Shown here piece after piece: positions 13,651 to 18,778 of a stretch of DNA of 36,677 bases. The stretch comes from Patescibacteria group bacterium (GTDB taxonomy: Bacteria; Patescibacteriota; Patescibacteriia; SG8-24), in assembly GCA_028714475.1 (NCBI GenBank), contig JAQTNC010000012.1, positions 3,631 through 40,307 on the forward strand, read 5' to 3'. Numbering within the stretch: the stretch's first letter is position 1; each line of letters begins with the position of its first letter. Position numbers and translations under genes: made by a program. The notes beneath the pieces are model-generated. The model was not told where the DNA came from, searched no databases, and saw only the letters and a list, made by a program, of their open reading frames with translations.

Positions 13651-16600
13651 ATGGCTAAGTTCCACTTGCCGACCATTGAGGAGGAAAACCTGAAACGTTG
13701 GGAGGAGCGGGGCGTTTTCCGTCAGGTTTTGGCCAAGCCGTCGACCCGCGGCAATTTTGTGTTTTTTGAGGGGCCGCCGACCGCGAACGGCAAGCCCGGC
13801 CTGCATCATGTCTTGGCGCGTTCCTTTAAGGATGTCGTCTTGCGTTTCCGCACCATGCGCGGTTATCACATCGATCGCAAGGCCGGCTGGGACACGCACG
13901 GCTTGCCGGTGGAGCTGGAGGTCGAGAAGCAGTTGGGTTTCACCAAGAAACAGGACATCGAGGAATACGGCATCGCCAAGTTCAACGCCAAGTGCCGAGA
14001 ATCGGTTTGGAAATATCTGGACCTGTGGGAGAAGCTGACGCGACGCACCGCCTTCTGGGTGGATTTAGAGAACCCCTACGTCACGTACAAGAACGACTAC
14101 ATCGAATCGCTGTGGTGGATTCTCAAGGAGATCGACCAGAAGGGCCTGCTCTATCAGGGATACAAGATCACGCCGCATTGTCCGCGTTGCGTAACGTCGC
14201 TGTCATCGCATGAGTTGGCACAGGGGTATAAGGACGTGGACGACCAGTCCATCTACGTGAAGTTCCACATCGCCGGGAGCGAGAATCGTTTTTTCCTGGT
14301 TTGGACGACCACGCCATGGACGCTGCCGGGCAACGACGCGCTCGCGGTCGGCGCGGATATCGAGTATGTCGAGGCGCGGCTTGCGGCGACGGGGGAACAG
14401 CTCATCTTGGCGAAGGCTCGGCTCGCGGCGCTTGACGGCGAATACGAAGTTATTGCCGAAATGCGTGGTCGCGATCTCGCGGGTATGGCCTATGAGCCGC
14501 TTTACCGCACGGCGGAGGCTTTTGCGTCCGATGCCCAGAAACCGCGTCTGGCCAATGCCTATAAGGTTTACGCCGCCGATTTCGTCTCGACGGTTGACGG
14601 TTCAGGCATCGTGCACATCGCGCCGGCTTTCGGTCTTGAGGACGCGGAGCTTGGTGAAAAGGCGAAACTGCCGACGTTGCTCACCGTGGACGCGACCGGC
14701 ACGATGCTTTCGGATGCGCCGGGCAAGGGTAAATTCGTGAAGAAGGCCGACGAGGACGTGAAAGCGGACTTGACGGCGCGCGGTCTGCTTTACAAGAGCG
14801 AGACTTATCGCCACAGCTATCCGTTCTGCTGGCGTTGCGGCACGCCGCTCATCTATTACGCCAAGAATTCCTGGTACATCCGAATGTCGGAATTGCGCGA
14901 GGAGCTGCAGAAGGGCAATGAGAGCATCAATTGGGTGCCGGCGCACATCAAGGAAGGGCGCTTCGGCGAATGGCTCAAGGATGTCAAGGATTGGGCGTTG
15001 TCGCGCGAGCGCTATTGGGGCACGCCGCTGCCGGTTTGGCAGTGTTCGTGCGGACACCGGGAAACCGTCGGCGGGCGCGATGGCCTTAAGTCATTGGCTC
15101 GACCGGCAAACCGGTATTTCCTCCAGCGGCACGGCGAGGCGGAAAACAACGTTGCCGACATCGTGAGCTGCTGGCCGGAACAGAAGGAATTCCACCTGAC
15201 CGAGAAGGGGCGGCAGCAGGCACGGGAGGCGGCCGCGAAGCTCAGGTCAATCGGCATCGAGGAGGTTTATTCGTCGGATATTGCCCGAGCCAAGGAAACG
15301 GCGGAAATCATCGCCGCCGAGTTGGGTTTGCCGATCAAATTCGATGAGCGGCTGCGCGAGATTGAATTCGGCGCTTATAACGGCAAGGGCGCAAAGGAGT
15401 ATCATGGGCAGTTTGCTGATCAATTGGAACGCTTCGACAAGCCATCCGAGGGCGGCGAGTCATTGCGTGATTGTCGCCGACGCGTGGTCGGATTCTTCAA
15501 GGGAATTAACGCCCAATCCAGCGGCAAGAAAATCCTTGTGGTCAGCCACGGCGATCCAATTTGGATGTTGCGGACAGGGCTCCAGGAATTGCCCGATGCC
15601 GCTGCCTTGGAGGCTGATGATTATAACCATAAGGGCCAGTTTGCCGAGTTGGAACTTGAGTCCGGCTTGCCGCGCGACGAGGAGGGGCACGTTGATTTAC
15701 ATCGGCCATACATTGACGAGGTCGTGTTGAAATGCCCGGACTGCGGCGGTGAGATGCGGCGCGTCACCGACGTCATTGACGTCTGGTTCGATTCCGGCGC
15801 CATGCCGTTCGCCCAGTGGCACTATCCGTTCGAGAACAAGGAACGCATTGATGGCGGAAGCAATTTCCCGGCGGAATACATTTCCGAAGCCATTGATCAG
15901 ACGCGCGGGTGGTTCTACACCTTGCTGGCCATTTCGACGCTGCTTGGGCGTGGTGCGCCGTACAAGAACGTCATCTGTCTCGGCCACCTGCTCGACGCCA
16001 AAGGCCAGAAGATGTCCAAGTCCAAGGGCAACGTTGTTGATCCGTGGGAGATGTTCTCGAAATACGGCGCGGATGCCGTGCGTTGGCATTTCTTCACCGT
16101 CAATCAGCCCGGCGACGTGAAGTGCTTTGACGAGAAGTCGCTCGACGAGGTGACCAAGAAGGTTTTCCTCATCCTCTGGAACGTGCTGACCTTCTGGAAG
16201 ACTTACGCCGGCGAAACGCGGGGTTCGGACGATTTGCCGGCCGCCGGCCATCCGCTCGACCGTTGGGTTCTGGCGCGGCTAGCCGAGCTCGAACGGGAAA
16301 CGCGTGGCGGTCTCGAGACCTACAACGTCGTTGATGCCTGCCGCGCCATCGGCGCGTTCGTGGACGAGCTTTCCACTTGGTATCTGCGTCGCAGCCGCGA
16401 TCGGTTCAAGTCCTCTGACGAACGCGCGAAGGACGAGGCAGTGGCGACGCTCGGCTACGTCCTCCGGACGCTGTCGAAAATCATGGCGCCGTTCACGCCG
16501 TTTTTGGCCGAACAGCTGTATGCCGAAACCGGCGGGCGATTGGATTCCGTGCATCTCGCCGAGTGGCCGGAAAATGCCGGTCAAACCGACCCCCAAGTCA

Positions 16601-17100
16601 TCGCGCTCATGGATTATGTTCGTTCGGCGGCCTCTTCCGGTCTGGAGGCGCGCGCCGCCGCCGGCATTCCGGTGCGGCAGGCGCTCGCCAAGGCCACGGT
16701 TCGCTCGCCGCAGGCCTTCGAGCCGTGGATGAAAGGCATCGTGCAGAGCGAGTTGAATGTCGAGGCCGTCGAGACGTCGGTCGTGACTGACGCGAAGACC
16801 GCCGGCGTTGAGCTCGACACGGTCCTGACGCCGGAATTGAAACGCAAGGGCGCGGCGCGCGAGGTCGTCCGTCACGTCAACGACTTACGCAAGGGCGCGG
16901 GCATGACCATCGGCGATCGCATCAAGCTGGCTTACGAGACGGAAAGCGCCTTCTGGAAAGAGGTTTTCTCCGAACATTCCTCCGTCATCGCCGCCGACAC
17001 ACTCGCCAATGCGGTCGAGGTCGGCCGTGCGGATACACCTCATCAGCGAGAAATCGAGGTCGAGGGGGAGAAGATTCTAGTCAGCATTGAACGGCTCTAA
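13651..17100 (+). CDS. ileS: isoleucyl-tRNA synthetase with an inserted histidine-phosphatase domain
   Basis: 1149 aa. It charges tRNA-Ile with isoleucine. The ATP-binding HIGH-type motif is GLHH (50-53) within PPTANGKPGLHHVLA, and KMSKS is at 787-791. GWDTHGLPVE, WTTTPWTLPGN (editing domain), RYWGTPLPVW and DVWFDSGAMPFAQWHYPF place it with the eukaryotic/archaeal-like (type 2) IleRS group. Between CSCGHRETVGG and the zinc-ribbon CPDCGGEM lies an extra segment, about residues 485-672, that is a complete histidine phosphatase (phosphoglycerate-mutase-like) domain: RHG with nucleophile His494, Arg546 in SSDIARAKETA, Glu570 in LREIEFG, and His633 in VVSHGD. All catalytic residues are present. 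Without the insert the enzyme would be about 960 aa. It is first in a run ileS-ruvA-femAB-like-tRNA-Arg. No Shine-Dalgarno is visible. Confidence 0.95.
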   Translation: MAKFHLPTIEEENLKRWEERGVFRQVLAKPSTRGNFVFFEGPPTANGKPGLHHVLARSFKDVVLRFRTMRGYHIDRKAGWDTHGLPVELEVEKQLGFTKKQDIEEYGIAKFNAKCRESVWKYLDLWEKLTRRTAFWVDLENPYVTYKNDYIESLWWILKEIDQKGLLYQGYKITPHCPRCVTSLSSHELAQGYKDVDDQSIYVKFHIAGSENRFFLVWTTTPWTLPGNDALAVGADIEYVEARLAATGEQLILAKARLAALDGEYEVIAEMRGRDLAGMAYEPLYRTAEAFASDAQKPRLANAYKVYAADFVSTVDGSGIVHIAPAFGLEDAELGEKAKLPTLLTVDATGTMLSDAPGKGKFVKKADEDVKADLTARGLLYKSETYRHSYPFCWRCGTPLIYYAKNSWYIRMSELREELQKGNESINWVPAHIKEGRFGEWLKDVKDWALSRERYWGTPLPVWQCSCGHRETVGGRDGLKSLARPANRYFLQRHGEAENNVADIVSCWPEQKEFHLTEKGRQQAREAAAKLRSIGIEEVYSSDIARAKETAEIIAAELGLPIKFDERLREIEFGAYNGKGAKEYHGQFADQLERFDKPSEGGESLRDCRRRVVGFFKGINAQSSGKKILVVSHGDPIWMLRTGLQELPDAAALEADDYNHKGQFAELELESGLPRDEEGHVDLHRPYIDEVVLKCPDCGGEMRRVTDVIDVWFDSGAMPFAQWHYPFENKERIDGGSNFPAEYISEAIDQTRGWFYTLLAISTLLGRGAPYKNVICLGHLLDAKGQKMSKSKGNVVDPWEMFSKYGADAVRWHFFTVNQPGDVKCFDEKSLDEVTKKVFLILWNVLTFWKTYAGETRGSDDLPAAGHPLDRWVLARLAELERETRGGLETYNVVDACRAIGAFVDELSTWYLRRSRDRFKSSDERAKDEAVATLGYVLRTLSKIMAPFTPFLAEQLYAETGGRLDSVHLAEWPENAGQTDPQVIALMDYVRSAASSGLEARAAAGIPVRQALAKATVRSPQAFEPWMKGIVQSELNVEAVETSVVTDAKTAGVELDTVLTPELKRKGAAREVVRHVNDLRKGAGMTIGDRIKLAYETESAFWKEVFSEHSSVIAADTLANAVEVGRADTPHQREIEVEGEKILVSIERL

Positions 17101-17101
17101 T

Positions 17102-17665
17102 ATGATCATCAATCTGTCAGGAAAGATAACGCACAAGGCCGCCGATTGGGTCGTCGTGGAGGCTGCTGGCGTCGGTTACCGCGTCTTTGTCACTCCGGCT
17201 CTCAACGAAACGCTGAAAGTCGGTACGGTCGCCAAACTTTGGACGCATGAGCACCAGCGCGATGATGGTCGCGAGCTGTATGGCTTTGGGTCAATGAACG
17301 AACTGGATCTGTTCAAGAAACTCGTAGACATCTCCGGCGTCGGTCCGCGTCTGGCTTTGAACGTGTTGGCGCTCGGTTCGGTCAAGGAAATCGAACGCGC
17401 CATCGAGAAGGGCGACGTGGATCTGTTGTCGCGGGTGCCGCGCATTGGACGCAAGACGGCGCAGAAGATCATCTTGGAACTGCGGGGCAAGCTGGTTGAC
17501 GGCGGCCGCGACGGCGACGAGGTCTTGGCCGCGCTCATCGGCCTGGGATATGACCGCGAAGCCGCGCGCGAGGCCCTGCGCCAACCGAGCGTCAAGGAAA
17601 CGTCGACCGTTGAAGCCCAGCTTAAGGCCGCACTCAAGGAATTGGGTAGGCGTCAGTCGCGGTAA
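17102..17665 (+). CDS. ruvA: Holliday junction branch migration protein RuvA
   Basis: 187 aa, normal for RuvA. It binds four-way junctions as a tetramer and loads the RuvB motor. The N-terminal OB-fold starts MIINLSGKITHKAADWVVVE and includes VGYRVFV. Two helix-hairpin-helix repeats follow (FKKLVDISGVGPRLALNVL and LLSRVPRIGRKTAQKIILEL). The C-terminal RuvB-binding domain is DEVLAALIGLGYDREAAREAL. The start is 1 base after the ileS stop; a longer frame from 17087 inside ileS is not needed. No ruvB or ruvC is present in the window. Confidence 0.95.
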   Translation: MIINLSGKITHKAADWVVVEAAGVGYRVFVTPALNETLKVGTVAKLWTHEHQRDDGRELYGFGSMNELDLFKKLVDISGVGPRLALNVLALGSVKEIERAIEKGDVDLLSRVPRIGRKTAQKIILELRGKLVDGGRDGDEVLAALIGLGYDREAAREALRQPSVKETSTVEAQLKAALKELGRRQSR

Positions 17666-17671
17666 GCGATC

Positions 17672-18778
17672 ATGATCTCCTCACATCTCGCCCGCAATGA
17701 GCAGTCTTGGGACGCATTCGTCATGGCGAACGGCGGCGGTTTTCATCATGCTTGGGATTGGGCGCGCTTTCAGGAGGCGGCGGGGCGGCAGATTTATCGG
17801 TTCAGGATAGACGAGCCGTCAAAGGACGAAGGCGGCGAGCACGAGGACACGGTCATCCAGTTTGTGGCCGTTATTCATGCGTTGCCGCTCGGTTTTCGTT
17901 ACACTTATGTTCCGTATGGGCCGGTATTGCGGCGCGGCGACGCTGCGGAGAACGCCCGGCGTTTTGAGACGTTCGTCGGCGCGCTTCGTGAGTTCGTTGC
18001 CCGAGAACACCTCCTTTTCGCGCGCGTTGATTTTCCGTTTCGGCAATCTTCAACCATGGTCACCGAGGAGGTGTTGGCACAGCACGGCTTTCAGCCGGTC
18101 AAAGCCGTTGCTCCGGCCGCCACGAGCATCGTTGATCTGGTGCCGACCGAAGAGCAATTGCTTTCCGCCATGCACCCCAAGACGCGCTACAATATCCGTG
18201 TGGCCGAGCGCCACGGCGTTGTCGTTCGCGAGGCAGCTTACGGTAACGCACACTTGCTACAGCATGACGTGGAGTTGTTCTGGCGCCTGCTTTCGGAGAC
18301 GGCGGCTCGCGACGGCTTCCGAACCCATCCTCGCTCCTATTACGAGACGATGATTGACGCGTTGTCCCCGAAGAAGCGCACGAACCTGACTGTCCGCCTC
18401 GTTTTTGCCGAACACGCGGGCGAGGTGGCGTCCGCGGCCTTGGTGGCCGACTACGGCGATATGGTGACTTACTTGCACGGCGCTTCGTCGTCGGTCAAGC
18501 GGCCAGTCATGGCGCCGTACGCGCTGCATTGGGAGATTATCCGTGAGGCTAAGCGCCGCGGCTTTGCCAAATATGATTTCTGGGGCGTGGCGGCGACCGA
18601 TGCGCCGGATGACCCGTGGGCCGGGATCACTCGTTTCAAACTCGGCTTCGGCGGCCGACGGGAAAATTACCTTGGGACCTGGGAGTTGCCAAACGGGGGA
18701 GTTTGGTATAAGTTGTATCGCAGCGTTAAGAATATTAGGGGTCGAGGAAGGCACGGCGGTGCGTCCGCCAGACAATAG
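17672..18778 (+). CDS. FemAB/FemX-like aminoacyltransferase
   Basis: 368 aa with two GNAT-like folds. FemABX proteins add amino acids from aminoacyl-tRNA to the peptidoglycan stem peptide (lipid II) at the cytoplasmic membrane face. Supporting features are an N-terminal SWDAFV...GGGFHHAWDWARFQE segment, the LLSAMHPKTRYNIRVAERHGV block (conserved Lys-x-Arg-x-N-I motif), HGASSSVKRPVMAPYALHWEIIREAKRRG and the C-terminal YDFWGVA...GITRFKLGFGG block. It follows ruvA by 6 bases and is 3 bases before tRNA-Arg(CCG), so all are probably co-transcribed. The amino acid and acceptor are not predictable. Related BacF/CelD-type GNAT proteins are an alternative. Confidence 0.82.
   Translation: MISSHLARNEQSWDAFVMANGGGFHHAWDWARFQEAAGRQIYRFRIDEPSKDEGGEHEDTVIQFVAVIHALPLGFRYTYVPYGPVLRRGDAAENARRFETFVGALREFVAREHLLFARVDFPFRQSSTMVTEEVLAQHGFQPVKAVAPAATSIVDLVPTEEQLLSAMHPKTRYNIRVAERHGVVVREAAYGNAHLLQHDVELFWRLLSETAARDGFRTHPRSYYETMIDALSPKKRTNLTVRLVFAEHAGEVASAALVADYGDMVTYLHGASSSVKRPVMAPYALHWEIIREAKRRGFAKYDFWGVAATDAPDDPWAGITRFKLGFGGRRENYLGTWELPNGGVWYKLYRSVKNIRGRGRHGGASARQ

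Follow-up and report, generated by a model that had tools for sequence, protein, structure and literature searches.

Why does an isoleucyl-tRNA synthetase (IleRS) carry a phosphatase inside its own core? The question is raised by the window, the 36,677-nucleotide stretch of Patescibacteria DNA analysed here, in which ileS encodes a synthetase with a nested histidine phosphatase (HP). The gene and the parts of the host synthetase are:

13651 to 17100, + strand: ileS with the nested HP, a single unbroken open reading frame of 1149 aa
13798 to 13809, + strand: GLHH at residues 50-53, a changed HIGH signature of the GXHH form seen in type 2 IleRS (from the sequence)
14224 to 14823, + strand: CP1 editing domain, residues ~192-391 (match to solved IleRS editing domains, e.g. 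1wk8)
15043 to 15051, + strand: first half of the zinc ribbon, C465 and C467 (alignments)
15733 to 15744, + strand: second half of the zinc ribbon, CPDC, residues 695-698, with C695 and C698 (alignment and sequence)
16009 to 16023, + strand: KMSKS loop, residues 787-791 (from the sequence)
16258 to 16686, + strand: anticodon-binding domain, residues 870-1012 (PF08264 match)
16756 to 17094, + strand: C-terminal DUF5915 match, residues 1036-1148 (PF19302 match)

The protein scores 871.7 bits against the TIGR00392 ileS model, above the equivalog cut-off of 621.4, and is the sole IleRS match in the 1.4 Mb genome (one match on search). It matches PF00133 and PF08264, aligns with the 1wk8 editing domain, and contains both GLHH and KMSKS, as expected of an IleRS. 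The AlphaFold2 model of the full-length protein has a mean pLDDT of 88 and a pTM of 0.79; its best Foldseek matches are Priestia IleRS2 entries, and the best phmmer matches are likewise type 2 IleRS. The GXHH motif has been defined for type 2 IleRS and linked to mupirocin hyper-resistance in IleRS2 (PMC10485003). The host is an ordinary type 2 IleRS and presumably essential. Its end is overlapped by ruvA (17087-17665), followed by a FemAB-type gene (17672-18778), and the gene order downstream of ileS is apparently the same on the complete chromosome L004.

The insert and its predicted catalytic residues are:

~15091 to ~15690, + strand: the whole insert relative to uninserted IleRSs, residues ~481-680 (alignment with uninserted orthologues)
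15118 to 15606, + strand: His_Phos_1 domain, residues 490-652 (PF00300, E 2.8e-42; AlphaFold2 models; Foldseek)
15127 to 15132, + strand: R493-H494, with H494 the predicted nucleophile (alignment and sequence)
15286 to 15288, + strand: R546, predicted phosphate-pocket arginine (from the sequence)
15358 to 15360, + strand: E570, predicted general acid/base (from the sequence)
15547 to 15549, + strand: H633, second catalytic histidine, in VVSHGDP (from the sequence)

The domain scores 145 bits against PF00300, whose curated cut-off is 21.7, which places it in branch 1 of the histidine phosphatase superfamily. The RHG nucleophile motif, second arginine, acidic residue, second histidine and fold of the superfamily are all present. 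An AlphaFold2 model of the excised domain, built from six sequences, reaches a pLDDT of 85, and Foldseek gives TM scores of 0.82 to PspA (4ij5/4ij6) and 0.79 to PhoE (1h2e). The nested HP is thus a complete domain that, judged by its residues and fold, is probably an active phosphatase. His_Phos_1 is the only domain matched in the insert, where an intein would have brought a Hint or splicing domain and none was detected; we infer that the HP stays in the protein product.

A sequence-only reading of this DNA had placed a complete, probably active HP in the catalytic region of IleRS at 15099-15666. Completeness within one frame is confirmed, as the segment proposed there matches PF00300 by itself at 8e-44, and the catalytic residues were named correctly as His494 (codon 15130), Arg546 (15286), Glu570 (15358) and His633 (15547). 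Probable activity is likewise supported by the residues, and a confidently predicted fold closest to PspA and PhoE agrees with the assignment. The extent was roughly right, the true segment (~481-680) being slightly wider, but position 15099 lies off frame, in a frame that contains stops; residue 485 begins at 15103. The insert does fall within the class I core, in its second half, but there it separates the two cysteine pairs of the protein's second zinc ribbon, the one after RYWGTPLPVW, and leaves both the HIGH-type GLHH and KMSKS uninterrupted.

The arrangement is present in related genomes, as had been anticipated. Its distribution was measured with a profile of the insert and its flanks against 380 Patescibacteria genomes, with a hand count of frames. 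HP is nested in IleRS in about 59 of these genomes, spread over about 31 families, and occurs in 10/10 genomes of the window's own family and in both other genomes of the order. Most Patescibacteria IleRSs are uninserted and ~950-1070 aa long. The sequence-only reading had held that orthologues lacking the insert would count against it; such orthologues are indeed the majority, but their existence does not refute the arrangement because the insert recurs in ~31 sampled families. A scan of the whole collection found the insert, among the loci it returned, only in Patescibacteria or in unassigned loci. Nested HP was absent from 149 genomes of the phylum of a Bacillota relative, where only stand-alone HP genes appeared at the threshold used.

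The insert is not confined to IleRS. At least 13 valyl-tRNA synthetases (ValRSs) contain a nested HP at one of two sites, the zinc-ribbon loop or a second loop after DTWFSSGLWTFSTLGWP (L137, L158, L159), and one of them (L251) contains two HPs. Some IleRSs contain two HPs and one contains three; an HP directly precedes the anticodon domain in L145 and L150. No leucyl-tRNA synthetase (LeuRS) frame appears among the HP matches listed, and 0/12 long LeuRSs contain an HP. Mapped onto a tree of 131 IleRS cores, the presence of a nested HP changes 17 times, at least 14 of them forced by well-supported branches, although this tree and the HP tree were built quickly and many of their forks have weak support. 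These changes mean that nested HP was gained, lost or moved many times.

Sequence change in the nested copies has spared the catalytic residues. The full R-H...R...E/D...H set is found in 106 of 108 copies, the exceptions being L147, without an aligned R-H, and L154, without the second histidine; in the median alignment column the commonest residue reaches only 37%. This pattern suggests that selection acts on catalysis in nested HPs, and it contradicts the earlier suggestion of a purely structural role. Family f60 illustrates persistence through a change of host. Its HPs form one clade (support 99), with hosts in two deeply separated IleRS clades. HP identity is 41-49% across host types and 45-52% within them, whereas identity of the host N-terminal half falls from 71-78% within types to 50-55% across them. 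This lineage either kept its HP while the synthetase type changed or moved the HP between synthetases. The pairing looks functional because HP entered IleRS and ValRS repeatedly and its catalytic residues are near-invariable.

HP is also found next to ileS in a gene of its own. In three genomes with an uninserted IleRS, it lies 4 bp (L212), 14 bp (L242) or 151 bp (L225) upstream of ileS, with the order argS-HP-ileS in L212 and L242. A fourth genome (L241/L213) has a looser cluster of argS, HP, a small open reading frame, an HD_4 gene and then ileS. In the HP tree, the three HPs that adjoin ileS all sit within the region of nested copies, and that of L212 groups with some of these with support 97. 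The HD_4 gene (L213:1545-2051), directly upstream of ileS and near the HP gene, belongs to a type known from small (p)ppGpp hydrolases. Elsewhere, an RNase HI-like gene, identified by sequence, adjoins an ileS with nested HP (L157:6243-6656), and RNase H-HP fusions are found in other organisms (NF005567). HP is also fused to membrane proteins, namely an MFS transporter (L155, 624 aa) and a VTT-domain protein (L156, 462 aa).

Other enzymes are nested in class Ia synthetases of this phylum. IleRSs contain NUDIX (L146, L268, L269) and GNAT (L150) domains, a ValRS contains HAD (L149), and serine hydrolase is nested in both IleRS and ValRS. Among the inserted-synthetase loci L146, L148, L149, L150, L268 and L269, some combine NUDIX, serine hydrolase, GNAT or HAD with HP. 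A Y1-transposase-like (IS200-like) domain occupies residues 328-407 of the IleRS of L264 (>1249 aa). LeuRSs (L286-L292) host NUDIX, HAM1, HAD, serine hydrolase and nucleotidyltransferase-like domains, and one of them (L286:377-5761) reaches 1795 aa with several nested domains in one protein. The Nudix box is intact by strict pattern in 5/10 proteins examined. With the ValRS cases, the tandem copies and the neighbouring HP genes, these nested enzymes turn the question into one about an architecture that recurs, no longer about a single odd protein. It is conceivable, as a tentative generalization, that the Patescibacteria Ile, Val and Leu synthetases are hubs whose few permissive loops repeatedly take up and retain active house-cleaning enzymes (HP, NUDIX, HAM1, HAD, serine hydrolase, GNAT), which would couple clean-up of nucleotides or by-products physically to charging within a single polypeptide.

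For the HP itself, we lean towards a working phosphatase functionally tied to charging by its host IleRS, most likely clearing a nucleotide-type phosphomonoester. Histidine phosphatases cleave phosphomonoesters and phosphohistidine; the first histidine becomes phosphorylated, the arginine and the second histidine bind the phosphate, and the acidic residue protonates the leaving group. By this chemistry, H494 would attack the phosphate of a phosphomonoester gripped by R493, R546 and H633, E570 would protonate the leaving group, and water would then free the phosphate. Retention of the HP next to the synthetase would reflect a task linked to isoleucine charging, or to valine charging in other lineages, and nesting would ensure equal amounts and proximity of the two enzymes. 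The most likely target of such clearing would be AMP, or else a nucleoside monophosphate that is damaged or non-canonical, formed or met close to the active site where ATP is used.

This explanation is weakest at the substrate step. A nucleotide-type substrate is preferred because the Ile, Val and Leu synthetases elsewhere host NUDIX, HAM1 and HAD, which are nucleotide or small-phosphate families; the serine hydrolase, GNAT and Y1-transposase-like inserts do not fit that theme. Hydrolysis of AMP would be wasteful with limited nucleotide synthesis, a point against AMP as the substrate. Aminoacyl-adenylate, also proposed from the sequence, is chemically unlikely because its diester-like phosphate is part of a mixed anhydride, while the superfamily cleaves phosphomonoesters and phosphohistidine. 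An intact RHG is no proof of activity, because mutation of the RHG histidine in mycobacterial MutT1 left hydrolysis of pNPP and phospho-NDK unchanged (PMC11784022). A further point against the explanation is that most Patescibacteria IleRSs lack an HP. Ap4A hydrolysis by analogy with the NUDIX-HP protein MutT1 was considered and set aside, as that report makes no mention of Ap4A and its RHG domain was inactive in the tests reported (PMC11784022).

The HP may instead be an active general phosphatase with no link to charging, hosted by class Ia synthetases because, in a small genome, such large and always expressed proteins make tolerant scaffolds. Several unrelated enzymes sit in several loops of Patescibacteria synthetases, and the fusions of HP to MFS and VTT membrane proteins show other hosts, both of which agree with such hosting. 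A merely tolerant scaffold does not, however, account for the restriction of nested HP to IleRS and ValRS, with no LeuRS among the matches listed and no HP in any of the 12 long LeuRSs, or for the separate HP gene that also adjoins ileS, and we regard this explanation as rather unlikely.

A regulatory role as a protein phosphatase appears improbable. The HP would dephosphorylate the synthetase or a partner, such as phosphohistidine NDK, and tune translation to nutrient state. NDK is dephosphorylated by histidine phosphatases such as SixA (PMC12934123), and an HD_4 gene lies in one ileS cluster and a Ppx/GppA gene near another. The closest folds of the HP, however, are mainly small-molecule phosphatases, and neither a kinase partner nor a phosphosite is known here.

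Detoxification is decidedly improbable. On this account, the HP and the other nested hydrolases would inactivate, at the target itself, nucleotide or aminoacyl-nucleotide antibiotics directed against synthetases. Some GNAT- and serine-hydrolase-type enzymes inactivate aminoacyl-nucleotide antibiotics, and the nested GNAT and serine hydrolase domains resemble these enzyme types. In addition, mupirocin hyper-resistance has been linked to GXHH (PMC10485003), the motif present in the IleRS of the window. Against this, HP is about equally frequent in HxGH and GxHH hosts (35 vs 32), mupirocin has no phosphate, and no inhibitor is known. Resistance of the mupirocin type through GXHH was considered separately and rejected, because the HP shows no preference between HxGH and GxHH hosts.

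It is very improbable that the HP is a metabolic enzyme displaced into IleRS, for example a phosphoglycerate mutase or a phosphoserine phosphatase. The best NCBIfam likeness is to archaeal dPGM and the best fold match is the phosphoserine phosphatase PspA, but the scores lie far under the cut-offs for dPGM (NF038349, 109.6 vs 225; TIGR01258, 43.1 vs 81.7), for CobC (95.1 vs 162.9) and PspA (75.1 vs 350) as equivalogs with query protein 1, and for SixA (34.4 vs 74.5), also an equivalog cut-off, with query protein 2. The window's genome, moreover, has two tandem cofactor-independent phosphoglycerate mutase (iPGM) genes (C1:82807-85936). It is scarcely credible that the insert is catalytically dead or only structural, or that it arose from faulty assembly or annotation: the defective copies of L147 and L154 could be cited in favour, but the other 106 of 108 are intact and independent assemblies with the insert are numerous, among them the complete chromosome L004 (CP129476.1). 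The misassembly considered in the sequence-only reading is accordingly rejected, and chance is excluded by the E-values together with the dozens of independent genomes, one of them that chromosome.

Extra domains on tRNA synthetases are already an established theme. What stands out here is that a second hydrolytic enzyme is nested in the core of the synthetase, has been acquired repeatedly and has stayed catalytically intact, an arrangement for which no earlier description was found in the open-access literature searched. Among the open-access abstracts examined, none was relevant to HP with IleRS, to aminoacyl-tRNA synthetase insertions in CPR or to NUDIX with LeuRS; the earlier remark that no described function was known for the arrangement agrees with this. 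The nested HP offers a direct route to asking which reaction cells want beside isoleucine and valine charging and, more generally, how bacteria with small genomes assemble proteins that combine several enzymes. It also explains to annotators the 1100-1800 aa synthetases of this phylum.

Among known systems, the type 2 IleRS structures of Priestia megaterium (IleRS2, 8c8u-8c8w) and Thermus (1ile) have the synthetase fold, editing domain, anticodon domain and KMSKS in common with the window protein; unlike it, they have no nested phosphatase, and their matching zinc-ribbon loop is short. PhoE (1h2e) and PspA (4ij5) share the fold and catalytic residues of the nested HP. Both are free-standing, whereas the nested domain comprises ~175 residues and is ~25-31% identical to them; PspA, a metal-independent phosphoserine phosphatase, is the closest fold (TM 0.82). 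The NF040702 family (ileS_w_GNAT) likewise combines IleRS with an extra enzyme domain, which is an acetyltransferase there and a phosphatase here, and the window protein scores 301 against its exception cut-off of 1999. Mycobacterial MutT1 (NUDIX-HP), whose RHG domain played no part in phosphatase activity in the published tests (PMC11784022), and the actinobacterial RNase H-acid phosphatase (NF005567) resemble the window protein in that an HP is fused to another enzyme, one that acts in the metabolism of nucleotides or nucleic acids. Those fusions are end-to-end, whereas the HP of the window is nested in its synthetase.
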